This document shows, piece after piece, positions 5,443 to 18,225 of a DNA stretch of 64,000 nucleotides. The DNA is from Alloyangia pacifica (GTDB lineage: Bacteria; Pseudomonadota; Alphaproteobacteria; Rhodobacterales; Rhodobacteraceae), in assembly GCF_020524285.1 (NCBI RefSeq), contig NZ_JAIVKX010000019.1:62001-126000 (forward strand). The letters run 5' to 3'. Both the position numbers and the translations under genes were made by a program. The first letter of the stretch is position 1; each line of letters opens with the position of its first letter. The notes beneath the pieces are model-generated. The model made no database searches, was not told the origin of the DNA, and saw nothing but the letters and a program-made list of their open reading frames with translations.

Positions 5443-7365
5443 TCACATCGGGCTGTACCAGATTGGCGAGGTATAGGCGCGCTCGGTGGTGATCATCGGC
5501 ACGTCTTCGGGCATCTCGACGCCGAACCTCTTGGCCTCGTAGGCCGTCCAGCGCGGTGTCGGAATTTCGATGACACGCGCATAGTAGAACGCCGGCAGCG
5601 CCGCGTCGAAATCGGGATCCTCCCAGACGCTGATGAGCTCGGGAGAACCGATCGAATTGGTCCAGCTGGCATTCGCGACATCGACGGTGTTGCCCACGTC
5701 CGGCAACTTGCCGGTCTCGTCCGGCGCCCGGTCGCCCGACCAGACCACGTCGTAAACTTTCTCGTGGGTCTCGCCTTCGGTGTCGATCCAGCCCTTCACG
5801 ATCTGGATGCGGTCGAGGTTGCCAGAGATCGGATCCTTCAGCGCGGCGACGAGGAAGCTCGGTGCGACGCCCTCGGGGGCCGGGCCGAGATCGCCGCCCA
5901 TGGGCACGCCCTTGGCGTATCCGGCATCCGCGGGCAGGCGGGTGATCGTATCGGCTTTGGTGAAATCGTAGCCGCCGAAAAAGCGCACCGTCATGCGTGA
6001 GCCGGTGGTGGCGTAAGTCTCCTTGCGCATCATCGCGTCGAAGATCGCCGCGCGGCTGTTCTCCGTAGCCCAGACCGCGCCGAGGCCGCCGGCGGCCTGC
6101 TTCCACCCGTAGATGGTCAGCGCGGGATCCGGCGCCTCGATCACCACGTGCTCCCAGCGGTGCGGTTCGGGCTCGACGCCGGAGTGCTTGCCGAAGAAGT
6201 TGTCCTCCTGCGCGGTCGCCATGCCGGTGTGGGAATCCGTTGCGCCGACCATACCGAACTTGAAGGGGTTCACCCCGAGGTCGCGCTCGATGTCGAGGCC
6301 GCGTTTCAGCGCTTCGCGGGCGTATTCGCCGGCCAGCATGTCCGGCGTCTTGACCTCGGTGCCGTTGAGGTTCGAGGCGTCCCATGTGTCGTGATCGGCG
6401 AACTCGTCGTCGGGGCTGAGGAAGGGATGCGCCTCGCCGTCGCCCTTGATCTGGGTCGGCTCGTAGAGCGGCTCGAACCGCGCCCGCATCTGCGCGATCT
6501 CCTCGGTCAGCGCCGAGCCGTCGTAGGCGTTCAGCGAGAACATCCGCCCGTTCGACAGGTTGCCATTGTGCGGGATCGCCAGTACCTCGGCGCCGCTGCG
6601 TGCCTCGTAGTCGGCGAGATAGGTCCAGAGATCCTCGGGGTTCTTGCTGTCGTACTGCGAAAACGGCCGGGTCTGGTTTGCCCGCATCGCATCGTCGCGG
6701 AACAGCACGTTGCGGTGCAGGTTGTTGGCACCCTCGGTGGTGTATTCGTAGCCGATGATCGCCGAGAAGACTCCGGGCTCGTTGTAGCGGTCGGCGAGCG
6801 CGGTGTAGCTCTCCCAGGCGTGCTTGATGGCCTTGGGGTTGTCGATCGGCGGCTCCTCGCCCGACAGCGAGGCGACGATCTCCATGGCGGTGTCGAAGGC
6901 GCGCTGCGCGTCACCCGCTGTCAGCGCCTCGTACCAGAGCCGTCCCTGCTCGGTGGCCAACACCTGTGCGTCCCCCGACAGCAACTGCGGCATCAGCCCG
7001 TACATCTCGGCATGGTCCGAGATCACCAGCCAGTCGAGCGGGCGCGAGAGCTTGGCACGCAGTCCATGGGTGGTGGTGACCTCCTCGCCGCGGGCAAAGC
7101 GGTAGGCGTCTTCCTGTGACAGGCGCGTCATGGTGCCGGCATCGACCGAAACCATGGTGTGCAGATGCGAGTCTCCCCACAGCGGCGCCTGCGGGAAATT
7201 CCGCCCGGCATAGGGCGAGAAGGCATCGGGCGCGAGCACGACCTCGGTGTCGGCTTGCTCGGTGGCGTATTCCTGCGCGGACGCGGAAAGCGGCTGGAGC
7301 GCGGCGCCGAGCGCCAGCACGTATCGAAATGATAAGGCGTATCTATGATTGAAGAAATGCGGCAT
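5443..7365 (-). CDS. secreted DUF3604 domain protein
   Basis: The protein has 640 residues from the ATG at 7365, which follows a strong GGGGAGGAG ribosome binding site; longer frames upstream lack one. Residues 1-31 form a signal peptide ending near ASA, so the product is exported. DUF3604 proteins resemble PHP-type metal-dependent hydrolases. Here GDSHLHTMVS (about residue 68), ISDHAEMYG and GATDSHTG supply the expected metal-binding histidines and aspartates, and the family region YATTGSRM lies late in the protein. The reaction of this family is not established. The gene is monocistronic, and its C-terminus abuts the islet spacer. Confidence 0.9.
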   Translation of the reverse strand: MPHFFNHRYALSFRYVLALGAALQPLSASAQEYATEQADTEVVLAPDAFSPYAGRNFPQAPLWGDSHLHTMVSVDAGTMTRLSQEDAYRFARGEEVTTTHGLRAKLSRPLDWLVISDHAEMYGLMPQLLSGDAQVLATEQGRLWYEALTAGDAQRAFDTAMEIVASLSGEEPPIDNPKAIKHAWESYTALADRYNEPGVFSAIIGYEYTTEGANNLHRNVLFRDDAMRANQTRPFSQYDSKNPEDLWTYLADYEARSGAEVLAIPHNGNLSNGRMFSLNAYDGSALTEEIAQMRARFEPLYEPTQIKGDGEAHPFLSPDDEFADHDTWDASNLNGTEVKTPDMLAGEYAREALKRGLDIERDLGVNPFKFGMVGATDSHTGMATAQEDNFFGKHSGVEPEPHRWEHVVIEAPDPALTIYGWKQAAGGLGAVWATENSRAAIFDAMMRKETYATTGSRMTVRFFGGYDFTKADTITRLPADAGYAKGVPMGGDLGPAPEGVAPSFLVAALKDPISGNLDRIQIVKGWIDTEGETHEKVYDVVWSGDRAPDETGKLPDVGNTVDVANASWTNSIGSPELISVWEDPDFDAALPAFYYARVIEIPTPRWTAYEAKRFGVEMPEDVPMITTERAYTSPIWYSPM

Positions 7366-7981
7366 TGGATATCTCCTCCCCAAGACCAAAACCGAAAAGA
7401 AGAACCAGGAAACCCACGGGTATGCCTTTACCACAATTTCGCATGCCGAGGAACGAATGCAGGGTGGGTGCCGCCCTTGAAGTCGGCTCCGCCATCGTGA
7501 TCCTGGCGCATGAAACGACCGCACCGCCACGCTTTCTGATGACCAGCGTTTTTGTCTTGGAGGTCTCGTCCCGGGTCTGGTTGCGGGCGGCAGTGTCGCG
7601 TTCGAGGCTAGGTCACCCCTTCGGGCCCAGGGAGTTTCTGCCGTGTTGCGCGCCTGCTTGCGGACCGTTGCAAGCATCTTGTCAGATCGCCCCTAGCGGG
7701 AGATCATTTGAGCATGACAAAGCCACATCGCCATTCAAGCCACGCCAAGACCGGAGCCGGGCTGAACCCTTGCGAAACGGCGCTACGCTCGGGCATCGGG
7801 GCGGGAGTGGAGGCGCGTCCGGACCTCAATATCGGGACGCGGTTGGCTTCGGTTAGACATGCGCGGCAAACCGCAGAAAAGCCGCTCGTCCAAGGTCATG
7901 TCGACCACGGCCTCGACGCGGACGGCCCCAGACACGACGGGGCCGAGCGCACGGCCCTCACCTGCTTCCTTTGAGGTCCTC
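7366..7981. other. divergent intergenic region
   Basis: This region lies between the divergently transcribed DUF3604 and MFS genes and I see no gene in it. Open frames here are antisense or lack ribosome binding sites. A lone TGAAAC (7511) and a weak pair TGAACC/CGAAAC (7763 and 7773) recall the motif seen from 9485 onward, but their spacing is 10, not 9, and the third half-site is missing. Confidence 0.5.
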
Positions 7982-9484: not shown

Positions 9485-9522
9485 TGAAACGAATGAAACA
9501 GCCCGCGCAATCGGCCTGAAAC
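9485..9522 (+). promoter_or_regulatory. TGAAAC element 1, upstream of the OsmC-like gene
   Basis: TGAAAC occurs at 9485 and 9494 (start-to-start 9 bp) and again at 9517, 23 bp after the second half-site. Ten bases after the third half-site is CAG. The same doublet-plus-third-site layout recurs at 10531, 13492 and 17693 with 33 bp instead of 23, a difference of one helical turn. The third half-site is 88 bp upstream of the 9605 start. Confidence 0.6.
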
Positions 9523-9604
9523 GCGAGGCCGTCAGAACTTCTGTCCATCGGAAGGGCACAGCGCCCGACGAGTTCACCAGCCCCCAATGGACAGGAGTTC
9601 AGCC

Positions 9605-10183
9605 ATGACGACCCAAACCCTCGAGAAGCCCGCCAAGACCGCCATGAACGGCGTCGACGTCCCCACCTTCCTCGCCACGCTCGGCGTGGTGGGAGAGACC
9701 CCGCAGATCGCCCAGTTCACCTTCCGCGCCGATGGCGAATGGCTCTCGGGCACGCACAGCCGGACCGCCTTCACCGGCTTCCACGGCGCCATGCAGGACA
9801 TGCAGCACCGCCGCGACTACGCCGTCGAATGCGACCACCCGCAGGTGCTCTGCGGGGCCGACAACGGCGTGACCCCGGTCGAGCTGCTGCTGGCGGCGCT
9901 GGCCTCCTGCATCACCGCAGGCATCGGCAATATTGCCTCGATCCGGCAGGTGAAGCTGCATGCGGTCGAGACCAAAATCGAGGGCGACATCAACCTCAAC
10001 GGCATCCTCGGCCTCGACAAGTCCGCCCGCAACGGTTTCACCGGCGTCCGCATGGCGGTGAGCATCCGCGGCGACGCCCCGCAGGAGAAGCTGCGCGAGA
10101 TCGTCGAGCAGTCGGTCGCCCGCTCCGCCGTCTTCGATGTGCTGAGCAACGGCGTGCCGGTATCGGTCGAGATGGCCGCATGA
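9605..10183 (+). CDS. OsmC-family protein
   Basis: The 192-residue protein belongs to the OsmC/Ohr superfamily, whose members reduce organic hydroperoxides or bind sulfur/thiol compounds with two reactive cysteines. Both cysteines are visible: one in VLCGADNG and one in LAALASCITAG, at the usual spacing. The N-terminal roughly 30 residues are an extension beyond the core. The ATG at 9605 follows ACAGGAG; an upstream in-frame ATG at 9587 lacks a site. The gene lies downstream of a TGAAAC element and is followed after 77 bases by a 56-residue gene on the same strand, probably one transcript ending at a hairpin near 10475-10504. A thiol or peroxide detoxification role fits the rest of the block. 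Confidence 0.88.
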   Translation: MTTQTLEKPAKTAMNGVDVPTFLATLGVVGETPQIAQFTFRADGEWLSGTHSRTAFTGFHGAMQDMQHRRDYAVECDHPQVLCGADNGVTPVELLLAALASCITAGIGNIASIRQVKLHAVETKIEGDINLNGILGLDKSARNGFTGVRMAVSIRGDAPQEKLREIVEQSVARSAVFDVLSNGVPVSVEMAA

Positions 10184-10260
10184 ACCTCCCCAGCAAGACC
10201 GCCCGCGCCGACCGGGGCGCGGGCCAACCCCGCCACCCCCTCATTGAAAGGACGCCCCCC

Positions 10261-10431
10261 ATGCCCCGTTTCCACGCTCCCGCCGCGACCCCCAGCTACG
10301 GCTCCGGCTTCGACAGCGTCGCCCTGCGCGACACCTTCGCCGACTTCCGCAACTGGTGGGACCGCAATTGCCTGCTGGACGACGCTGAGCCGCAGGCCGA
10401 GCAGGAGGCCTCGCTGGCAAGGGCCGCCTGA
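10261..10431 (+). CDS. small protein, 56 residues
   Basis: The reading frame begins at an ATG preceded by GAAAGGACG and ends at a TGA at 10429. The product is a soluble 56-residue protein with an aromatic segment FADFRNWWDRNC near the middle and an alanine/glutamate-rich tail. I do not recognise it. It is positioned as the second gene of the OsmC-like transcript, and codon use matches its neighbours, which supports a real gene. Function is unknown. Confidence 0.6.
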   Translation: MPRFHAPAATPSYGSGFDSVALRDTFADFRNWWDRNCLLDDAEPQAEQEASLARAA

Positions 10432-10474
10432 GGCCCGCCTGCCTTTCCTCTGACCTGCCTCCCGACCTCCCCCG

Positions 10475-10504
10475 ACGGCCCGCCGCCTTTGCGCTGCGGG
10501 CCGT
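10475..10504 (+). terminator. hairpin after the 56-residue gene
   Basis: ACGGCCCGC and GCGGGCCGT form a 9-bp perfect stem around a 12-base loop. Only a short T-poor stretch follows, so it may be an intrinsic terminator of modest strength. Confidence 0.45.
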
Positions 10505-10530
10505 TCGCGTTCCGGACCGCCGGGCCGGGC

Positions 10531-10578
10531 TGAAACACTCGAAACCCGAACGCCCGTTGCCCGAGGCATGGGTGAAAC
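10531..10578 (+). promoter_or_regulatory. TGAAAC element 2, upstream of the first flavoprotein
   Basis: TGAAAC at 10531 and CGAAAC at 10540 (9 bp apart) are followed by TGAAAC at 10573, 33 bp after the second half-site. CAG lies ten bases beyond. The third half-site is 48 bp from the 10621 start codon. Confidence 0.65.
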
Positions 10579-10620
10579 GCGGCGGGTCCAGTCTTCGGGA
10601 AACCGCACTGGAGTTGACCC

Positions 10621-11868
10621 ATGAGCACTGCAACCAGCGTCCTGATCCTCGGAGCCGGCCAGGCCGGCCTCGCCCTCAGCCGGGCCCTGTCGCACCGCGG
10701 CATCGACCACGTCCTGCTCGAGCGCGGGCGGGTGGGCGAGCGCTGGCACTCTGAGCGCTGGCCGGGGCTGCACCTGCTGACCCCGAACTGGATGAACCGC
10801 CTGCCGGGGCCGTGGCCCGAGGCCGAACCTGACGGCTTCATGTCCGCCGCCGAGTTTGCTGCCCGGCTCGAGCGCTACAGCGCGGCCATCTCGGCGCCGG
10901 TGGTGACGGGCTGCGAGGTGCAGTCGGTCGCGCGCGAGAACGGCCGTTTCCGCGTGGTCGCGGGCGGACGGCAATGGTTCGCCAGGGCAGTGGTCATCGC
11001 CACGGGCGCCTGCGACCGGCCCGCGGTGCCGGCCTGGGCCAGCACCTTGCCAAAGAAGATCACCCAGATCGTGCCCACCCGTTACCGCGGCGCGGAGCGC
11101 CTGCCCGAGGGCGGTGTGCTGATCGTCGGCGCGTCTGCCACCGGGGTGCAGCTGGCCGCCGAGATACAGGGCTCGGGGCGTCCGGTGACGCTGGCCGTGG
11201 GCCGCCATGTCCGCGCGCCGCGCCGCTACCGGGGACGGGAAGTCTTCGAGCTGCTCTCGCAGAGCGGGTTTCTGGGCAGCCCGCGCCCCGCGGATGCTCA
11301 TCCGGCGCATTTGATGACACTTCCGTCGTTGCAGCTCACCGGCTCCGGCGGCGGCGAGGCGCTTGGTCTCGACCGGTTGCAGGCCGTGGGCGTGCATCTG
11401 GTGGGGCGGGCGCTCGGGGCGGAGGGTGGCGTGCTGCGTCTCGATCCTGCGCTTGGCGCCGAGATCGCCGCCGGCGAGCGGCGGCGGCGCAAGTTGCTGA
11501 CCCTTCTCGAGACCTACCTCGCGGAGACCGGCAGCGCGCTGCCCGATGATCCCGGCGCCTGGCACGCGCCGGACCTGCCGCACGCCGGGCCGGACCGCCT
11601 CGATCTGACAGCCCGGGGCATCCGGACCATCGTCTGGGCCACCGGCTTTCGTCGCGCCTACCCGTGGCTGCACCTGCCGGTGCTGGGCGCCGCGGGCGAA
11701 CTCGAGACCGACCGCGGGGTCACCGCCGAGCCCGGCCTCTACGCGCTCGGCCTGCCGTTCCTGCGCCACCGGGCCTCGGCCTTCATCCACGGGGTCGGGC
11801 GCGATGCCGAAGAGCTCGCCCCGCATATCGCCGCCGGCCTGCGCCGGGGCATCTCGCGTGCCGCCTGA
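10621..11868 (+). CDS. FAD/NAD(P)-dependent oxidoreductase, CzcO-like monooxygenase
   Basis: The 415-residue protein begins with an FAD-binding Rossmann motif (LILGAGQAGLALS, residues 8-20). It has the aromatic stretch typical of flavin-containing monooxygenases (ERWHSERWPGLHLLTP, about 40-55). A second dinucleotide fold, VLIVGASATGVQLA, near residue 165 should bind NAD(P)H. A late motif IVWATGFR matches the CzcO/flavin-containing monooxygenase group. Such enzymes oxygenate nucleophilic N or S atoms of small molecules; the substrate here is unknown. It starts 48 bp after a TGAAAC element and is followed after 40 bases by a second flavoprotein. Confidence 0.85.
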   Translation: MSTATSVLILGAGQAGLALSRALSHRGIDHVLLERGRVGERWHSERWPGLHLLTPNWMNRLPGPWPEAEPDGFMSAAEFAARLERYSAAISAPVVTGCEVQSVARENGRFRVVAGGRQWFARAVVIATGACDRPAVPAWASTLPKKITQIVPTRYRGAERLPEGGVLIVGASATGVQLAAEIQGSGRPVTLAVGRHVRAPRRYRGREVFELLSQSGFLGSPRPADAHPAHLMTLPSLQLTGSGGGEALGLDRLQAVGVHLVGRALGAEGGVLRLDPALGAEIAAGERRRRKLLTLLETYLAETGSALPDDPGAWHAPDLPHAGPDRLDLTARGIRTIVWATGFRRAYPWLHLPVLGAAGELETDRGVTAEPGLYALGLPFLRHRASAFIHGVGRDAEELAPHIAAGLRRGISRAA

Positions 11869-11908
11869 CAGAGTTCAACCCGACACGGAACCACAAGGGA
11901 ATTTCGAC

Positions 11909-13045
11909 ATGACCATAGAGACTTACGACGCACTCATCGTTGGGGCCCGCTGCGCCGGGGCCGCCACGGCCCTGCAACTGGCCCGCAGCGGGGCAAAGGT
12001 GCTGCTGATCGACAGCGCGCGCGGCGGGAGCGACACCATGTCGACCCATGCGCTGATGCGCGGCGCGGTGATGTTGCTCGAGCGCTGGGGCCTTGCCGCG
12101 CCGCTGCGCGCCGCCGGAACACCGCAGATCGCGCGCACCAGCTTCATCTACGGCGAGGACGCCTTCGACATCGACCTGCGCCCCGAACATGGCGTCGAGA
12201 CCCTGATGGCGCCGCGGCGCCACCTGCTCGACCGGATGCTCGCGGAGGCCGCTGCCGAGGCCGGGGCCGAGCTGCGCTTCGAGACCAGTTGCACCGAGCT
12301 CATCAAGGACGCGCAGGGCAGGGTCACCGGCGCACGTGTGTCGCTGCCGGATGGGCGCACGCGCGAGGTCTCCGCTGGGCTGGTCATCGGCGCCGACGGC
12401 AAGCGCTCGCGCGTCGCGCGGCTGGTGGGCGCCGAGGTCACGCGTCAGGCCCGCCACACGGTCGCCTGCGCCTATCAATATGTCTCGGGCCTGCCCAACC
12501 GCGGTTTCCGCTGGCATTTCGCCGAAGCCGCGGCGGGCGGAATAATCCCCACCAACGGCGGCGGCAGCTGCGCATTCGTCGCGCTGCCGGAACACGCTGC
12601 TGCCGAGCTGCGCAGCGCCTCGGTGCAGGAATTGGCCGCGCGCCACATGCCGGTGATGGCCGAGGACATGACCGGCGCGGAACCGCTCGAGGCACGGGTG
12701 ATCTTCGCGGGGCTCAAGGGCTACATGCGGCGCTGTGCAGGCCCCGGCTGGGCGCTGGTCGGCGATGCCAGCTGGTTCCGTGATCCGATCACCGCCCATG
12801 GCATCACCGATGCCTTCCGCGACTCCGAGATGCTCGTCAAGGCGGTGAAGACAGGCACGCTCGGCTGCTACGAGGCGCAGCGGGATCGCCTGTCGCTGCC
12901 GATCTTCGAGCTTTCCGACCGTATCGCAAGCTTCGACTGGTCGCTGGGTGACCTGGCCGGGCTGCACAAGCAGCTGAACCGGGTGATGAAGGCCAACCAG
13001 GCGTGGATTGCCGGGACGCGGGACGAGGTGCGGCGGGTGGCGTGA
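11909..13045 (+). CDS. FAD-dependent monooxygenase/reductase, PHBH-like fold
   Basis: The 378-residue protein has a GXGXXG-type FAD motif (ALIVGARCAGAATA, about residues 7-20), the second FAD contact VIGADGKRSRVAR near 155 and the late GDAS motif (LVGDASWFRDP, about 290). That order is typical of p-hydroxybenzoate-hydroxylase and geranylgeranyl-reductase type flavoproteins. The ATG at 11909 is preceded by AAGGGA; the frame is open further upstream only because it runs over the previous gene. It is likely co-transcribed with the 10621 oxidoreductase. The substrate cannot be inferred. A perfect hairpin at 13181-13207 lies 135 bases after its stop. Confidence 0.85.
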   Translation: MTIETYDALIVGARCAGAATALQLARSGAKVLLIDSARGGSDTMSTHALMRGAVMLLERWGLAAPLRAAGTPQIARTSFIYGEDAFDIDLRPEHGVETLMAPRRHLLDRMLAEAAAEAGAELRFETSCTELIKDAQGRVTGARVSLPDGRTREVSAGLVIGADGKRSRVARLVGAEVTRQARHTVACAYQYVSGLPNRGFRWHFAEAAAGGIIPTNGGGSCAFVALPEHAAAELRSASVQELAARHMPVMAEDMTGAEPLEARVIFAGLKGYMRRCAGPGWALVGDASWFRDPITAHGITDAFRDSEMLVKAVKTGTLGCYEAQRDRLSLPIFELSDRIASFDWSLGDLAGLHKQLNRVMKANQAWIAGTRDEVRRVA

Positions 13046-13180
13046 AGGCGCCCCGCCAGTGCACCGAGAGCCGGGCGAGGGCCTCCCTGCGGCGACGGGG
13101 CGGCCCTCGTCCGGCGGCCTTGCCTCGGTTGCGGGCGGATGAGCGCGGCGCGACGTTACCAACATCATGACCGAAAGCAG

Positions 13181-13207
13181 AAGGACCCGCCACTTCGGCG
13201 GGTCCTT
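13181..13207. terminator. hairpin between convergent genes
   Basis: AAGGACCCGCC and GGCGGGTCCTT form a perfect 11-bp stem with a 5-base loop. It sits between the stop of the plus-strand flavoprotein and the stop of the minus-strand 49-residue gene (21 bases away). On the minus strand a short T-containing run follows. It may terminate both. Confidence 0.7.
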
Positions 13208-13228
13208 CGCGGTGTCCGTCTGCGTATT

Positions 13229-13378
13229 TCAGCAATTGTGGATGCGCCGGTAGATGCGCTGGCGCTCGGCTTCGACGATCTCGTCGGTGCCGCCGGGCAG
13301 GGCGCGCAGGGCGCGGCGCAGGCGGCGCTCGGCGCGGCGATGTTGCAGGGCATCGTGCAGATCGTTCAGGGCTTTCAT
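13229..13378 (-). CDS. small arginine-rich protein, 49 residues
   Basis: This gene is shorter than most ORF cut-offs. It reads from an ATG at 13378 with GAAGGA eight bases upstream to TGA at 13229, just before a strong hairpin. The product is basic and helical (HRRAERRLRRALRAL in the middle, RQRIYRRIHNC at the end) with one C-terminal cysteine. I do not recognise the family. On its own strand, TGAAAC lies about 50 bases upstream of the start (plus-strand complement at 13428-13433), with the same AG ten to twelve bases later as in the four TGAAAC elements. It diverges from the hemoglobin operon, so both may share control. Confidence 0.6.
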   Translation of the reverse strand: MKALNDLHDALQHRRAERRLRRALRALPGGTDEIVEAERQRIYRRIHNC

Positions 13379-13427
13379 TTGTAGTATCCTTCTTCATCAG
13401 GGTGATGAGGAAGTCTCGCCCGCAGCG

Positions 13428-13433
13428 GTTTCA
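13428..13433 (-). promoter_or_regulatory. single TGAAAC half-site facing the 49-residue gene
   Basis: TGAAAC is read on the minus strand, followed ten bases later by GAG. It lacks the upstream doublet on that strand, but the plus-strand doublet at 13492-13506 is only about 60 bp away. Confidence 0.35.
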
Positions 13434-13491
13434 GCCCGATGTCGGCCCGGCGCCGGAAAGGTATCCGCCGTATCGCCGGTCATCCCGCGCC

Positions 13492-13539
13492 TGAAACAAT
13501 CGAAACAAAGCCGCGCCCACTACGACACGCGCCTGAAAC
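13492..13539 (+). promoter_or_regulatory. TGAAAC element 3, upstream of the hemoglobin-kinase operon
   Basis: TGAAAC at 13492, CGAAAC at 13501 (9 bp apart) and TGAAAC at 13534 (33 bp after the second) reproduce exactly the spacing seen at 10531 and 17693. AAG lies ten bases after the third half-site. The start codon of the globin gene is 141 bp downstream of the third half-site. Confidence 0.65.
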
Positions 13540-13674
13540 ATGTGCCGCCAAGGCTGGACTCTCCCCGCCCGACGAAAACCTTGCCACAGAGGTGCAAGAT
13601 CCCGCATGTTTGTAGAACATTACAAAACAGCGCATTCTTACGCCGAGGAGCCCCGCGCTCCGGGGGAGGTGGCC

Positions 13675-14031
13675 ATGGAAAAGTCCCTGTTCGACAAGTA
13701 CGGCGGCTTTTCCGTCGTCAGCAAGATCGTCCTCGACCTCTACGACCGGCTGCTCGACGACGATGACGTCGGGCCGTTCTTCGACGAGATCGACATGGCC
13801 CGGATCGTCGATCACCAGACCAAGTTCGTCTCCTCGCTGATGGGAGGCCCGGCCTCCTACACCGACGACCAGATCCGCAAGATGCACGCGCATCTCGAGA
13901 TCCATCAGCTGCATTTCGACAAGCTGCAATCGCTGCTCCGCGCCACGCTGGCCGATCACGGGGTGGCGCCCGAAGATCAGGACGCGATCCTTGCCGCCTT
14001 CGAGGCGCGGCGCAACCTGGTGACGGAATAG
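13675..14031 (+). CDS. group I truncated hemoglobin
   Basis: The 118-residue protein has the size of a group I (trHbN) truncated globin. It shows LFDKYGGF at the start, DHQTKFVSSLMGGP in the middle and KMHAHLEIHQLHFD, where H71 aligns with the proximal heme-binding histidine. The ATG at 13675 follows GGGGAGG. Truncated hemoglobins bind O2 or NO and often serve NO detoxification or gas sensing. It is the first gene of an operon: 10 bases separate it from the cyclase-fold gene, and the hybrid kinase and response regulator follow without gaps. That arrangement suggests it supplies or modulates a gaseous signal for the kinase; this is inference. Confidence 0.88.
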   Translation: MEKSLFDKYGGFSVVSKIVLDLYDRLLDDDDVGPFFDEIDMARIVDHQTKFVSSLMGGPASYTDDQIRKMHAHLEIHQLHFDKLQSLLRATLADHGVAPEDQDAILAAFEARRNLVTE

Positions 14032-14041
14032 GAGAGGCGCC

Positions 14042-15091
14042 ATGACCATCGCCGCGATCAACGAGCAGCTGCTGAGGGCGATCGGGGTCGGGGTGGCGCT
14101 GCTCGACCTGCAGAGTCTGCGCCTGCGCTTCGGCAACGACACCTTCCGCGGCTGGTTCGGCGAGATCGAGGTGGGCTCCAACCTGCTCGAGCAGTTCCAG
14201 GATTTCGACGTGGAGGCCCTGCGCGCGGCGCTGGCCGCCGAAGGGCGCTACACCACCGAGACCACCTTCCGGCTGCGCCGCCGCACGATGACCGTGGCGA
14301 TGGACTTCAACCGCGCGCTCGACGAGGAAGAGCCGATCGCGGTGCTGGTGTGCCAGAACATCTCGCGCATCAAGGAGCTGGAGTCGATGATCGACAGCTA
14401 CTCGATGATGGTCGAGCGCAACACCCGCGAGATCAAGCGCGAGAAGGAGCAGGTCGAGAAGCTGCTGCTCAACATGATGCCGCGCTCGGTCTACGAGGAA
14501 TACAAGACCTTCGGCATCGTCACGCCGCGGCTCTACGATCCGGTGTCGGTGGTCTGCCTCGACTTCGTCGGCTTTTCCGAAATGGTCAGCGCGCATGAGC
14601 CGGCGGTGATCGTCTCGGAGCTCAATGACATCTACACCGCCTTCGACCGCATCGGCGAGCAGTTCGGCTGCGCGCGGATCCGGGCGGTGGGCGATCTCTA
14701 CATCGGCGTCGCGGGGCTGCCCGATCCTACCGACGATCATGCGCAGGCCGCCGCCAATGCCGCCATCCGCTTCATGCGCTATCTCAACCAGCGAAACGGC
14801 AGCCACCCGATCCAGTGGCGCTGCCGGGTCGGCATCGCCGCGGGCGCCGTGGTCGGCTCTGTCGTCGGCGTGCAGAAATACATCTACGACGTCTTCGGCC
14901 CGGCGGTGATCACCGCCAGCCAGCTGCGCTACAAGGCTGAGCCGATGACCATTTCCGGAAATCGTGCGGTGGTCGAGCGGCTCGGTGACGCGTTCACCGC
15001 CGCCGAGGCGGGCAGCATCACGCTCTCTGACGGCAGCGAGGAGGCGGTGTTCCGCATCGCCGCCGAGATGCGCGCGGCGCAGGAGCGCTGA
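14042..15091 (+). CDS. PAS plus class III cyclase-fold protein, catalytic residues altered
   Basis: The 349-residue protein has three parts: a PAS-like N-terminus (about 1-115), a signalling helix (about 118-160, LESMIDSYSMMVERN onward) and a class III nucleotidyl cyclase domain (about 175-320). The two metal-binding aspartates are present (LDFVGF and AVGDLY). However, where active enzymes have the transition-state pair in a VNVASR-type motif, this protein reads VITASQ, so Asn and Arg are replaced by Ile and Gln. It may therefore be a non-catalytic sensor, or have very low activity. It sits between the truncated hemoglobin and a hybrid kinase, and its stop overlaps the spacer before the kinase start by only one base. 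It probably relays a signal to the kinase. Confidence 0.83.
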   Translation: MTIAAINEQLLRAIGVGVALLDLQSLRLRFGNDTFRGWFGEIEVGSNLLEQFQDFDVEALRAALAAEGRYTTETTFRLRRRTMTVAMDFNRALDEEEPIAVLVCQNISRIKELESMIDSYSMMVERNTREIKREKEQVEKLLLNMMPRSVYEEYKTFGIVTPRLYDPVSVVCLDFVGFSEMVSAHEPAVIVSELNDIYTAFDRIGEQFGCARIRAVGDLYIGVAGLPDPTDDHAQAAANAAIRFMRYLNQRNGSHPIQWRCRVGIAAGAVVGSVVGVQKYIYDVFGPAVITASQLRYKAEPMTISGNRAVVERLGDAFTAAEAGSITLSDGSEEAVFRIAAEMRAAQER

Positions 15092-15092
15092 G

Positions 15093-17000
15093 ATGGCAGT
15101 GCGCTTCGACCCTTCGGTCCCGGAAGCGGGGGACGGCGCGGGGCACCGCCCGGCGGATATGCTCGAAGGGGTGATCGACGCGCTTTCCGAGGGGTTGGCG
15201 ATCTTCGACGAGAATGCCCTGCTGCTGCGCTTCAACCGCGGCTTTGCTGAGATGAACCCGGCGGTGGCGGACCTGCTGGCCGAGGGGCTCGACTGGTCCA
15301 TCCTGCTGCGCGAATGGGTGATCCGCGGCGGTCTGACTGCCGGGGACGCTGAGCGGCTCAGCTTCATGGAGGCGCGGCTGGCGGGCGGCGACTGGATGGT
15401 GACCCCGCTGGAGATCGAGGGCGGCGACCGGGTTACCGAGATCCTGTTGCGCAGCACCGCCGCGGGCGGCTTCGTGCTGGTGCAGACCGACATCACCGAG
15501 CGCCGCGCCTTCGAGGAAACCGAGCGCGCCGCCGACCAGCTGGTGCGCAAGGTGCTGGAGAGCTGCCCCGCGAACATCATCATGTCGCGCGTCGGCGATG
15601 GCGAGGTGATCTACCGCTCGCCCGCCGCCAGCGAGCTTCTGGGCAGCGCCGAGCATACCCACGCCCATTTCGCCTCGCGCGCCGAGCGGGCCGATTTCAT
15701 CACCGCCGTGCTGCCCGACGGTCGGGTCGACGACATGCCGGTGACCGGCATCCGCGCCGATGGCGCGCGCTTCCCGAGCCTCGTCTCGGCGCGGCTGATC
15801 CAGTATCGGGGCGAGGATGTGCTGGTCTCGGCGACGGTGGATGTCTCGAAGGAAGTGGACCTGCGCCGTCGCCTCGCCGCACAGCGCGAACAGATCTTCC
15901 AGGCCGAGAAGATGTCGGCGCTCGGCGAGTTGCTGGCCGGGGTGGCGCATGAGCTGAACAACCCGCTCTCGGTGGTCGTCGGCCACGCGCTGATGCTGCG
16001 CGACGAAGAGATTTCCGACGATGTGCGCCGCCGGGTCGAGAAGATCTCCGACGCCGCAGAGCGCTGCGCGCGGATCGTGAAGTCCTTCCTCGCCATGGCC
16101 CGCCAGCAGCCGGCGCGGCTGGTGCCCATGGATATCGCCGAGACCGTCGAGACCGCCGTGGGCGCGCTTTCGCAAAGCGCCGAGGGGCTGCGGGCGGAGG
16201 TGTCGCTGGAGATCGCGCCGGACCTGCCGCCGGTGCGCGGCGACGCCCACCAGATCGCGCAGGTGGTGATCAACCTCGTGACCAACGCCGATCAGGCCAT
16301 CGGCGAGAGCGGCACGGGCGGGCGGATCGACATATCCCTCAGCCACGACCCCGCGGCGCAGGTGGTCGAGCTGCGCGTCGCCGACGACGGGCCGGGCATC
16401 CCGAAGGACATCCGCAGCCGCATCTTCGACCCGCTCTTCACCACCAAGCCGGTCGGTTCGGGCACCGGCATCGGGCTGGCGCTCTGCCACCGCATCGTCA
16501 CCGCCCATTCCGGCGCCATTTCCCTGGCCGCGGCAGGGCAGGGTGCGACTCTCGTGGTGCGCCTGCCGACCACTGAGGCGGATACGGCGCAGGCCCCGGG
16601 CAAGACGACAACCGAGACCCCCGCCGGGCGCGGAGCGGTGCTGGTGGTGGACGACGAGGAGGACGTCTCGGACCTCATCCGCGAGATCCTTCTGCGTGAC
16701 GGGTTCGAGGTGACCGTGGCGAACTCAGCCGAAACCGCGCTCGATCTGCTGGCAGGGCGGGACTTCGCGCTGATCCTCACCGATCTCAACATGCCGGGGC
16801 TCGGTGGGCGCGGCTTCTACGAGCGGCTCCTGCGCGACCGCCCCGCGATGGCGCGCCGCATGGGCTTCGTCACGGGCGATACGATGAGCCCGCAGGCGCG
16901 CGGCTTCCTCGACGGCGCCGGACGGCCGTTTCTCGAGAAGCCCATCGCCCCCGAAGAGCTGCGGCGGCTCGCGCGCACCATGCTGGAGGGCGGCGCATGA
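15093..17000 (+). CDS. hybrid histidine kinase with PAS domains
   Basis: The 635-residue protein has no obvious membrane helix, so it is probably cytoplasmic. In order it shows a PAS-like region (about 20-140), a second PAS (about 150-255), a HisKA domain with the phospho-acceptor in AHELNNP (H286), and an HATPase domain with N, G1 and G2 boxes (VTNADQAI, DDGPGIP, GSGTGIGLAL). It ends with a receiver domain whose acceptor lies in LTDLNMPG (D564). The start at 15093 is one base after the cyclase-fold stop, and the end overlaps the response regulator by four bases (ATGA). The receiver tail may feed back on, or branch from, phosphotransfer to the separate regulator. The signal is unknown; the globin next door points to a gas or redox cue. 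Confidence 0.92.
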   Translation: MAVRFDPSVPEAGDGAGHRPADMLEGVIDALSEGLAIFDENALLLRFNRGFAEMNPAVADLLAEGLDWSILLREWVIRGGLTAGDAERLSFMEARLAGGDWMVTPLEIEGGDRVTEILLRSTAAGGFVLVQTDITERRAFEETERAADQLVRKVLESCPANIIMSRVGDGEVIYRSPAASELLGSAEHTHAHFASRAERADFITAVLPDGRVDDMPVTGIRADGARFPSLVSARLIQYRGEDVLVSATVDVSKEVDLRRRLAAQREQIFQAEKMSALGELLAGVAHELNNPLSVVVGHALMLRDEEISDDVRRRVEKISDAAERCARIVKSFLAMARQQPARLVPMDIAETVETAVGALSQSAEGLRAEVSLEIAPDLPPVRGDAHQIAQVVINLVTNADQAIGESGTGGRIDISLSHDPAAQVVELRVADDGPGIPKDIRSRIFDPLFTTKPVGSGTGIGLALCHRIVTAHSGAISLAAAGQGATLVVRLPTTEADTAQAPGKTTTETPAGRGAVLVVDDEEDVSDLIREILLRDGFEVTVANSAETALDLLAGRDFALILTDLNMPGLGGRGFYERLLRDRPAMARRMGFVTGDTMSPQARGFLDGAGRPFLEKPIAPEELRRLARTMLEGGA

Positions 17001-17695
17001 GCGATCACGTCCTCATCTGCGACGACGAGCAGGACCTGCGCGAGATGGTCGGCGAGTACCTCGGCAAGCGCGGCTACCGCACCACGCTGGCGGGCGGGGC
17101 GGACGAGCTGCGCGAGAAACTGGCGCAGGACCGGCCCGACCTTATTCTGCTCGACATCAACATGCCGGGTGAAGACGGGCTTTCCGTGCTGCGCAGCCTG
17201 CAGGGCCCCGAGGCACCGATGGTCATCATGCTGACCGCTGCAGGCGAGGTGATCGACCGGGTGGTCGGCCTCGAGATGGGGGCCGACGACTACCTAGCCA
17301 AACCCGTGGATCTGCGCGAGCTCGCCTCGCGGATCAAGGCGGTGCTGCGCCGCCAGACCTCGGCCCCCGAGGAGGCGCCGCGCGAGCGCACCCGCTTCCG
17401 CTTCGGCAAGACATGGCTCGATCTCGACGCGGCGAAACTCTTCGACGAGGAGGGCATCGAGCTGCCGCTCACCGCCATGGAGTTCAACCTTCTCAAGCTC
17501 TTTGCCCGCAACCGGGGCCGGGTTCTCAATCGCGACCAGATCCTCGAGGGGGCGCACGACCGGGCGTGGGATCCCTTCGACCGGTCGATCGACATCCGCA
17601 TCTCGCGCATCCGCAAGAAGATCGAGGTGAACCCGGCCAAGCCCGAGGTGATCCGCACCGTGCGCGGGGTTGGCTACATCTACGATCCGGGCTGA
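16997..17695 (+). CDS. OmpR/PhoB-family response regulator
   Basis: The 232-residue protein has an N-terminal receiver domain with the acidic pocket DDEQD and phospho-acceptor D53 in LLDINMPG, the conserved threonine in MLTAAGE and lysine in LAKPVD. A winged-helix DNA-binding domain follows (about 130-230, TAMEFNLLKLFARNRGRVLNR and VRGVGYIYDPG). It overlaps the kinase gene by ATGA, so the pair is translationally coupled. Regulators of this class bind direct repeats, so the TGAAAC-N3-YGAAAC elements at 9485, 10531, 13492 and 17693 are natural candidate targets, including its own operon promoter. The 17693 element starts in the last codons of this gene. Confidence 0.93.
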   Translation: MSDHVLICDDEQDLREMVGEYLGKRGYRTTLAGGADELREKLAQDRPDLILLDINMPGEDGLSVLRSLQGPEAPMVIMLTAAGEVIDRVVGLEMGADDYLAKPVDLRELASRIKAVLRRQTSAPEEAPRERTRFRFGKTWLDLDAAKLFDEEGIELPLTAMEFNLLKLFARNRGRVLNRDQILEGAHDRAWDPFDRSIDIRISRIRKKIEVNPAKPEVIRTVRGVGYIYDPG

Positions 17696-17740
17696 AACCT
17701 TTGAAACACCGGCGCGCTAGGGCGGAAACAGGGCGGAAAC
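17693..17740 (+). promoter_or_regulatory. TGAAAC element 4, upstream of the second globin
   Basis: TGAAAC at 17693 and 17702 (9 bp apart) are followed by GGAAAC at 17735, 33 bp after the second, with an extra GGAAAC at 17724. CAG lies ten bases after the third half-site. The element overlaps the stop codon of the response regulator gene, and the next start is 53 bp from the third half-site. Confidence 0.65.
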
Positions 17741-17787
17741 CCGGGGCGCGCAGACTGGCTGCATCATCCGATCCAGAGGAGAGCGCC

Positions 17788-18225
17788 ATGAGCCTGACAC
17801 CGCAGAACATTTCCGACATCCGCGCCAGCTGGCAGGTGCTGGCCGCCGATGCCGATGGGTTCACCGCCGATTTCTACGCCGCGCTGTTCCGCCGCGATCC
17901 GGCGCTGCGCCCGCTCTTTGCCCAGACCGACCTGCCTGCGCAGCGCAAGAAGCTCGTCGCGGCGCTGGCGCTGGTGGTGCGGAATGCGGACGATCTGTCG
18001 GCCGTGCTCGGCCCGCTCGAAGAGATGGGGACCCGCCACGTCGGTTACGGCGTGAAGGACAGCGACTACACCACCGTGGGCGGCGCGCTGATCGAGACCA
18101 TGGAAGCGCACCTGCAAGAGGGGTTCACCGCCGAGGTGCGCGACGCCTGGATCACCGCCTACGGCGCGGTGGCCGGCACGATGATGGCCGGCGCGCAGGC
18201 CGCCGAAGCCCGCAAGTCGGCCTGA
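17788..18225 (+). CDS. single-domain globin
   Basis: The 145-residue protein is a full-length globin of the flavohemoglobin-N-terminal or single-domain hemoglobin type. It opens with an A helix (LTPQNISDIRASWQVL) and has H84 in GTRHVGYG as the proximal histidine, then the segment TAEVRDAWITAYGAVAGTMM. The ATG follows AGAGGAGAG. No reductase domain is attached. The preceding TGAAAC element suggests it answers to the adjacent two-component system. A 43-residue gene begins 10 bases after its stop, then the cysteine synthase fusion. Binding of O2 or NO is expected; its physiological ligand is not known. Confidence 0.88.
   Translation: MSLTPQNISDIRASWQVLAADADGFTADFYAALFRRDPALRPLFAQTDLPAQRKKLVAALALVVRNADDLSAVLGPLEEMGTRHVGYGVKDSDYTTVGGALIETMEAHLQEGFTAEVRDAWITAYGAVAGTMMAGAQAAEARKSA

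Follow-up and report, generated by a model that had tools for sequence, protein, structure and literature searches.

A 64 kb stretch of Alloyangia pacifica DNA (GCF_020524285.1, NZ_JAIVKX010000019.1, positions 62,001-126,000 of the forward strand; hereafter the window) carries four copies of a composite promoter element, and comparison of sequences across genomes indicates that the OmpR-type response regulator encoded at 16997 probably uses each as an operator for activation. Each element has four half-sites on the same strand, with A and B forming a distal pair and C and D a proximal pair, followed by a -10 hexamer. The regulator would bind both pairs and thereby serve sigma70 promoters that have no -35 element.

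Four copies of the element in the window

When TGAAAC-N3-YGAAAC was searched for with up to one mismatch, the window gave four matches, all exact and all on the forward strand, at 9485, 10531, 13492 and 17693 (Table 1); 0.19 would be expected, and none of 100 shuffled sequences reached four. These doublets had been picked out in a first-pass annotation of the sequence, as had a third half-site at distances that our measurements reproduce: the step from B to D is 33 bp in three elements (10540 to 10573, 13501 to 13534 and 17702 to 17735) and 23 bp in the fourth (9494 to 9517), equivalent to gaps of 27 and 17 bases (the N27 and N17 patterns). The annotation had also pointed to a recurring AG, which indeed occupies positions +17/+18 from the first base of D in all four and corresponds to the second and third bases of a -10-like hexamer starting exactly 10 nt past D. 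What it had missed was half-site C, 11 bp 5' of D.

The 15 bases of the distal pair at 9485 are identical in seven of the eight genomes of the genus that have a close regulator orthologue, and the eighth (G001) has the variant TGAAACAAACGAAAC. The spacing of the globin, cyclase, kinase and regulator genes suggests that they form one operon; among solved structures, group 1 globins come closest to the truncated globin, and adenylate cyclases to the cyclase. The first TGA of the second globin's operator (17693-17695) doubles as the regulator gene's stop codon, which locks operator and coding end together. No Rfam family reached its gathering threshold anywhere in the window.

Table 1. Element parts and associated genes in the window.
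Feature	Position	Strand	Sequence and spacing	Support
Distal pair A-B, 5' of OsmC-like gene	9485..9499	+	TGAAAC GAA TGAAAC	pattern match
Proximal pair C-D	9506..9522	+	CGCAAT cggcc TGAAAC, 11 bp apart; B to D 23 bp	
Candidate -10	9533..9538	+	CAGAAC, 10 nt past D; OsmC ATG 9605	
OsmC-like protein gene, putative target	9605..10183	+		Pfam OsmC 7.1e-18
Distal pair A-B, 5' of flavoprotein genes	10531..10545	+	TGAAAC ACT CGAAAC	
Proximal pair C-D	10562..10578	+	CGAGGC atggg TGAAAC; B to D 33 bp	C-D weak: 0.8 bits
Candidate -10	10589..10594	+	CAGTCT; ATG 10621	
Two flavoprotein genes, putative targets	10621..13045	+		Pfam Pyr_redox_3 5.2e-18, FAD_binding_3 2.6e-26
49-residue gene, likely target	13229..13378	-		no Pfam family at E <= 0.01
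Candidate -10 of 49-residue gene	13412..13417	-	GAGACT; ATG 13378	
Proximal pair C-D of 49-residue gene	13428..13444	-	CGACAT cgggc TGAAAC	19.9 bits
Degenerate distal pair A-B of 49-residue gene, uncertain	13461..13475	-	CGATAC GGC GGATAC, CGATACGGCGGATAC	standard 33 bp
Distal pair A-B, 5' of globin-cyclase-kinase-regulator genes	13492..13506	+	TGAAAC AAT CGAAAC	
Proximal pair C-D	13523..13539	+	CGACAC gcgcc TGAAAC; B to D 33 bp	
Candidate -10	13550..13555	+	AAGGCT; globin ATG 13675	
Truncated globin, nucleotide cyclase and PAS hybrid histidine kinase genes	13675..17000	+		
OmpR-type response regulator gene, proposed binder	16997..17695	+		Pfam Response_reg 2.3e-27, Trans_reg_C 3e-23
Distal pair A-B, 5' of second globin gene	17693..17707	+	TGAAAC CTT TGAAAC	
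Proximal pair C-D	17724..17740	+	GGAAAC agggc GGAAAC; B to D 33 bp	
Candidate -10	17751..17756	+	CAGACT; ATG 17788	
Second globin gene, putative target	17788..18225	+		Pfam Globin 5.8e-17

Half-sites and their spacing

Across genomes, A conforms to YGWWAC and B to YGAAAC, 9 bp apart, and C to nGA[C/A]A and D to nGAAAC, 11 bp apart; B precedes C by 22 bp, by 21 bp or, one turn less, by 12 bp. Half-site C is degenerate in the window's genus and plain elsewhere: TGAAAT in KLH11, Ruegeria EL01 and L084, TGAAAA in G023, CGAAAA in G055 and CGAAAT in L091 (G, L and C labels followed by a number denote genomes, fetched loci and contigs). Twenty-four aligned 27-spaced elements, 19 of them from the genus, were selected on A, B and D only; in the columns outside that selection, the G and the A of C and the A of the hexamer are each present in 24 of 24, and the C preceding the hexamer A and the A and T between the distal halves stand out as well.

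Half-site A is loose, (T/C)G(A/T)(A/T)AC, with GAAAC, GATAC and GTTAC all present; because it is looser than the first-pass annotation supposed, the TGAAAC direct repeat is one form of YGWWACAATYGAAAC. A search anchored on B, C, D and the -10, with A not required, returned 31 distinct matches from 3.57 Mb of strand, against none in the control. YGAnA lies exactly 9 bp 5' of B in 30 of these; since 23 of the 31 come from the genus, the count outside it is seven of eight. The one exception, an element divergent from the regulator gene in a gammaproteobacterial assembly with a 47% regulator (L116:7124, reverse strand), has TGAAAC 10 bp before B.

Forty elements were also tabulated, hand-picked from matches to the weight matrix described below, which presets the distance from D to the -10, so that their counts lean towards the consensus; genus repeat copies, L085 (close to L083), L226 (the contig of L084) and the weak L225 and L228 matches were left out. 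In this table the second position of C is G in 38 of 40, and 35-40 of the 40 retain each GAAAC base of B and D. A 26-base gap is confined to kinase promoters (nine of nine); four elements have the 17-base gap and the remaining 27 have the 27-base gap. Less biased than these counts are the anchored search, together with the family B-C-D count and the 41-element hexamer count given below. With gaps of 15-29 allowed, 17, 26 and 27 are the only gaps among matches that exceed 33 bits in the window and the 21 loci listed; that cut was set after we had seen a 31.4-bit match with gap 22 that resembles a terminator; another match, at 23.3 bits, has gap 18. With that proviso on the cut, the gaps fit the earlier idea that the doublet is kept in helical phase with the promoter-proximal site.

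The period of head-to-tail half-sites for OmpR/PhoB regulators is 10-11 bp. The first-pass annotation had given the operator a 9-bp period, which is right for the distal pair and not for the operator as a whole, since the proximal pair has the ordinary 11-bp period. A 9-bp step lacks about 51 degrees of a complete turn, unlike the usual same-face tandem dimer. What sets the element apart is the 9-bp spacing of its distal pair and the steps of nearly whole turns that separate the two pairs. A geometry undescribed for the OmpR family, in which two protomers 9 bp apart act jointly with a conventional dimer on the 11-bp proximal pair, at fixed helical distances, in activating -35-less promoters, is a possibility that we put forward tentatively.

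The -10 hexamer and promoter architecture

The hexamer has the form YAGnnn with a nearly invariant A, and no -35 is conserved. Among 41 elements chosen regardless of the hexamer (those of 44 doublets with a third site at gap 16-18 or 26-28), 37 retain the A: 28 of the 31 from the genus and nine of the ten from outside it. The four exceptions are three YgjV promoters, which have TAnnnT one base further on, 11 nt past D, and one match in L073.

At ten kinase promoters with a 26-base gap, a predicted ATG follows the hexamer by 6-7 nt in eight (G055, KLH11, EL01, L084, G212, G292, G200 and G269, with KLH11 and EL01 being near relatives); G023 has an ATG at 3 nt and a second at 6 nt, and G306 a GTG at 66 nt. 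The hexamer starts TAG in nine of them, the eight and G023. Such spacing of the ATG would look like that of a leaderless message made from the -10 at these promoters. At nine loci the kinase promoter is paired with a divergent element (L072, L074, L083, L084, L221, L222, L224, L227 and L229); the A-to-A distances, in the same order, are 86, 76, 83, 87, 76, 86, 86, 86 and 65 bp, mostly differing by steps of about one turn.

Co-occurrence with the regulator gene

Within a sample of 20 genomes of the genus, including the one that carries the window (G000), the full pattern with up to three mismatches is found in all eight genomes that have a close regulator orthologue (89-100% identity) and in none of the 12 that lack one. 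All but one of its 25 matches are at homologous promoters, and a reversed-pattern control gave none in the 20 genomes. The first-pass annotation had proposed such a comparison of orthologous promoters.

The family sample comprised 295 genomes (294 genera), 15 of which have a regulator match at E <= 1e-60, with at least 59% identity in 12. Here the B-C-D pattern (A not required, up to one mismatch) gave 14 matches in nine genomes and none when reversed; seven of the nine are among the 12 and two among the other 283. Genomes that had shaped the pattern (G000, G023, G039 and G055) are among the seven; without them and G226, which is the same contig as L084, the counts are three of seven versus two of 283. 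Fisher values for the co-occurrence are 7.9e-6 and 7.7e-10, and 8.5e-5 without the shaping genomes, all of which overstate independence because the genomes are related.

In other genera the element also marks the promoter of the kinase-regulator genes themselves. In G015 the regulator is on one contig (C1) and the OsmC and flavoprotein genes with their elements are on another (C2), as expected for a trans-acting regulator. Together with the co-occurrence, these observations support the proposal, already made in the first-pass annotation, that the sites are a local regulon of putative operators for the 16997 regulator.

Tests of a matrix trained outside the genus

A weight matrix was trained on nine elements from outside the genus, with permitted B-to-D gaps of 15-29 for the window and 21 listed loci and of 16-18 and 26-28 only for new loci. 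Its scores for the four elements of the window are 43.3, 41.1, 40.6 and 24.6 bits, followed among the matches listed by one of 9.3 bits; the reversed window reaches 11.3 and ten codon-shuffled windows give at most 9.2. Matches within 30 bp of a better one were dropped from the window listing, which hid the site of the 49-residue gene, and this was scored separately.

The matrix was fixed before eight new loci with regulators of 59-68% identity were fetched, and seven of the eight have a match above 20 bits, which in five precedes the kinase gene (44.6, 45.4, 46.8 and 59.9 bits, and a weak 24.5 in L229). No such match was obtained in three loci with 46-48% regulators or in 475,527 bp of reversed DNA. 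Among orthologue loci collected earlier, L088 (55% identity) reaches 37.0 bits.

A proposed mechanism and its alternatives

From the sequence, spacing, conservation and co-occurrence described above we infer how regulator binding, activation, phosphorylation, stoichiometry and signal might fit together. The hybrid PAS kinase would phosphorylate the regulator, presumably on D53, which is invariant in seven aligned orthologues and which the family suggests as the phospho-acceptor. One regulator dimer would anchor on the information-rich A-B pair and a second would occupy C-D at the -35 place, in a PhoB-like manner, so recruiting RNA polymerase to a weak sigma70-type -10. With the kinase-regulator genes within the regulon, the loop would be autoregulatory. 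As to the signal, the globins, cyclase and thiol enzymes hint at nitric oxide, redox or electrophile stress, which is our guess.

Several observations weigh against assigning the sites to this regulator, in addition to the relatedness of the genomes. The element does not track the regulator perfectly: one genus genome has an extra match, with three mismatches, elsewhere; G016, a ninth genome of the genus sample, has only a 55% regulator relative and no element; and no orthologue was detected in G273 and G319, which have B-C-D matches, in G032, G049 and G109, which match a shorter pattern that also gave five control matches in 148 genomes, or in G018, which has an N17-pattern match where the N17 control gave two in 20 genomes. 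The matrix results are likewise uneven. Among the new loci, the L225 and L228 matches are weak (27.9 and 26.2 bits) and lie elsewhere than at the kinase gene, and L223, whose contig stops about 250 bp past a partial kinase match, has none. Among the earlier orthologue loci, nothing exceeds 14 bits in G016 (55%) or L089 (54%), L086 (62%) has only 14.7 bits, and L087 (60%) has 23.3 and 19.1. Across 71 loci with distant regulators (L092-L162; 1.27 Mb) there are three matches, of 21.6-25.1 bits. In the window itself, C-D of the flavoprotein element scores just 0.8 bits, and the element of the 49-residue gene totals 11.0 bits (A-B -8.9, C-D 19.9), which is background. Finally, another regulator with the same distribution would give the same co-occurrence, which by itself cannot distinguish the two.

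A different protein, either a second activator or an architectural one, might bind A-B, with C-D and the -10 belonging to this regulator and A-B conserved at the same locus. The two pairs do differ, in spacing (9 versus 11 bp) and in the extra conserved bases of A-B (AAT between the halves in most), which have no counterpart in C-D; in its ACAATTGAAAC form A-B moreover has partial dyad symmetry around CAATTG and is maybe a different kind of site. Nonetheless, B and D share a same-strand GAAAC-type core and A-B keeps set distances from C-D, and we regard a separate A-B binder as unlikely. Less likely again is that the sites are operators of this regulator which repress or act in both directions: C-D overlaps the place where a -35 would lie and could also block polymerase, but the -10s are weak and the column profile has no -35, as expected of activated promoters.

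The sequence TGAAAC resembles the -35 of some extracytoplasmic function (ECF) sigma factors, for example Bacillus SigW, and D could in principle be such a -35, with the doublet incidental. In the 24-sequence profile column +28 past D does carry 0.96 bits. However, ECF spacers are about 16-17 nt and the conserved hexamer starts 10 nt past D; the strong columns are +17 (2.54 bits) and +21 (1.40 bits), and none from +22 to +27 exceeds 0.62. Half-sites A, B and C would also be left unexplained. We rejected this reading on the D-to-hexamer spacing and consider it very improbable. That the motif arose by chance, or by duplication of upstream DNA that neighbouring genes might share, without function, is scarcely credible, being contradicted by conservation in which spacers vary in sequence and not in length across genomes, by the number of copies in the window and by the out-of-genus and prospective matrix results. 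Activation by the 16997 regulator from both pairs is the reading we favor.

Elements elsewhere and the content of the regulon

The first-pass annotation had suggested scanning the whole genome. The exact doublet occurs six times on the two strands of G000 (5.73 Mb), four times in the window and at C5:29060 and C23:57813; the 27-spaced pattern (up to three mismatches) is confined to three promoters of the window, and its 17-spaced counterpart (up to two) to OsmC, C5:29060 and C3:352520. The doublet at C5:29060, with a further TGAAAC 23 bp past its second half-site, precedes YgjV, DsrE and rhodanese genes. That at C23:57813 is antisense inside an open reading frame (ORF), isochorismatase-like by eye, and has no third site; it and C3:352520 were set aside as likely chance, as were doublets in L031, L032, L033, L188 and L073, where the third site is at an odd gap or the rest is lacking. 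The detectable regulon in G000 would then comprise four or five window promoters and one distant promoter, and weak sites would escape the patterns.

The uncertain fifth promoter is that of the 49-residue gene. The first-pass annotation had described a single half-site there (13433, reverse strand); the half-site and its trailer are present, but it is not single, as C, a -10 and a degenerate A-B accompany it (Table 1). The same arrangement is found in L065, L068 and L064, all three of the other genomes where tblastn found the gene, aligned. With the element as a whole at background by the matrix, the evidence for this distal pair is its conservation in the four genomes.

Across the 20 genomes of the genus sample, the 17-spaced pattern matched 20 times (eight OsmC, four YgjV, three before a small ORF and five others) and its control twice. 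The YgjV elements, at C5:29060 of G000 (L082:9061), L065:5209, L066:5086 and L069:4713 (reverse strand), have AGACC-centred palindromes overlying the -10 region, and in G000 a TetR gene is divergent from this promoter, which suggests activation combined with TetR repression. The small ORFs of L199, L200 and L203 (31, 37 and 31 residues, the element near 1501) end in RFTDWA(S/A)I; none was found in G000 by a 31-residue query, for which an empty search shows little.

Judged by position, the likely targets in several genera are the kinase-regulator genes, OsmC-like proteins, a cysteine-synthase-glutaredoxin gene and alpha/beta hydrolases (labels tested against Pfam in KLH11 and assigned by eye in G055 and G212). 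In the window's genus they are the truncated globin-cyclase-kinase-regulator set, the second globin, flavoproteins and small proteins. An ABC-transporter-like gene and a methyltransferase (G023) and an RTX-repeat protein (G039) are each seen in a single genome. In L084 a gene for a DUF1127 small protein (7301-7528, reverse strand) lies between the element and the cysteine-synthase-glutaredoxin gene. Further pattern matches in regulator-bearing genomes, at G055:C42:38645 (L241), G023:C942:226559 (L248) and G269:C68:174122 (L244), mark possible regulon members. A DNA similarity search for plasmid relatives gave three partial matches, covering 2-5% of the query.

Relationship to known OmpR-family systems

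The regulator has a receiver domain and a C-terminal winged helix domain (Table 1). Its best NCBIfam model is OmpR (NF007005; 214.5 bits, below the 331 cut-off), and it falls below the cut-off of each of the best 25 models listed; the scores for VirG (NF010430, 170.8 versus 344) and PhoB (TIGR02154, 158.8 versus 296.2 bits) likewise fall short.

The PhoB half-site is TGTCA, in contrast to GAAAC in the element, and the Pho box of phoA has 10 nt from its second half-site to the -10. PhoB-activated promoters and the element share a short fixed distance from half-site to -10 and the lack of a -35; the element has in addition a second, distal pair. A longer form of the VirG box, TNCAATTGAAAY, which did not appear in the papers seen, is matched by the TACAATTGAAAC core that six kinase promoters carry (L084, L088, G212, G292, G200 and G269).

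In the portions of the literature available to us, the tandem half-sites of the Pho box overlap the -35 (PMC3348028), the place that C-D takes in the element. The vir box half-site of VirG, an OmpR-family regulator of Agrobacterium, is TG(A/T)AA(C/T), which covers TGAAAC; unlike the present element, no four-part spacing is stated for it in the accessible part of that source (PMC10432156). The box of GlnR, an OmpR-type regulator of actinomycetes, is gTnAc-n6-GaAAc with half-sites 11 bp apart, and typical targets have two boxes (PMC3087709, PMC5826061). C-D has this form, a loose half-site and then GAAAC 11 bp on, a likeness of sites only; GlnR boxes, as far as these excerpts go, follow at 11 bp, whereas the element's distal pair is spaced at 9 bp and lies about two turns, or one, further back. 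CenR of Rhodobacter sphaeroides, which controls cell-envelope genes, recognizes the direct repeat TGA-N8-TGA, a period of 11 bp by our count and 10 in the paper; C-D fits this form, but the CenR motif, in the text accessible to us, has two half-sites only where the element has four (PMC9275681).

Because VirG, GlnR and CenR have them, neither the GAAAC half-site nor an 11-bp proximal pair is new. The earlier suggestion of a new binding mode is accordingly not supported for C-D and may hold for A-B; for the half-site VirG and GlnR provide precedents. None of the literature matches listed, seen in part and with subscription papers outside their scope, describes the operator or regulon, which does not establish its absence from print.

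Implications

These comparisons define, from sequence alone, a compact conserved regulon of globins, a nucleotide cyclase, thiol and flavin enzymes and small proteins. It would answer to a two-component system of which our searches showed no account, and its putative regulator is present at no less than 59% identity in 12 of the 294 family genera sampled. The operator is precise enough for further members to be predicted, and the apparently leaderless kinase messages make the promoter assignment checkable by 5'-end mapping. Its mixture of a 9-bp and an 11-bp pair would provide a natural test of how flexibly OmpR-type dimers can be arranged on DNA.

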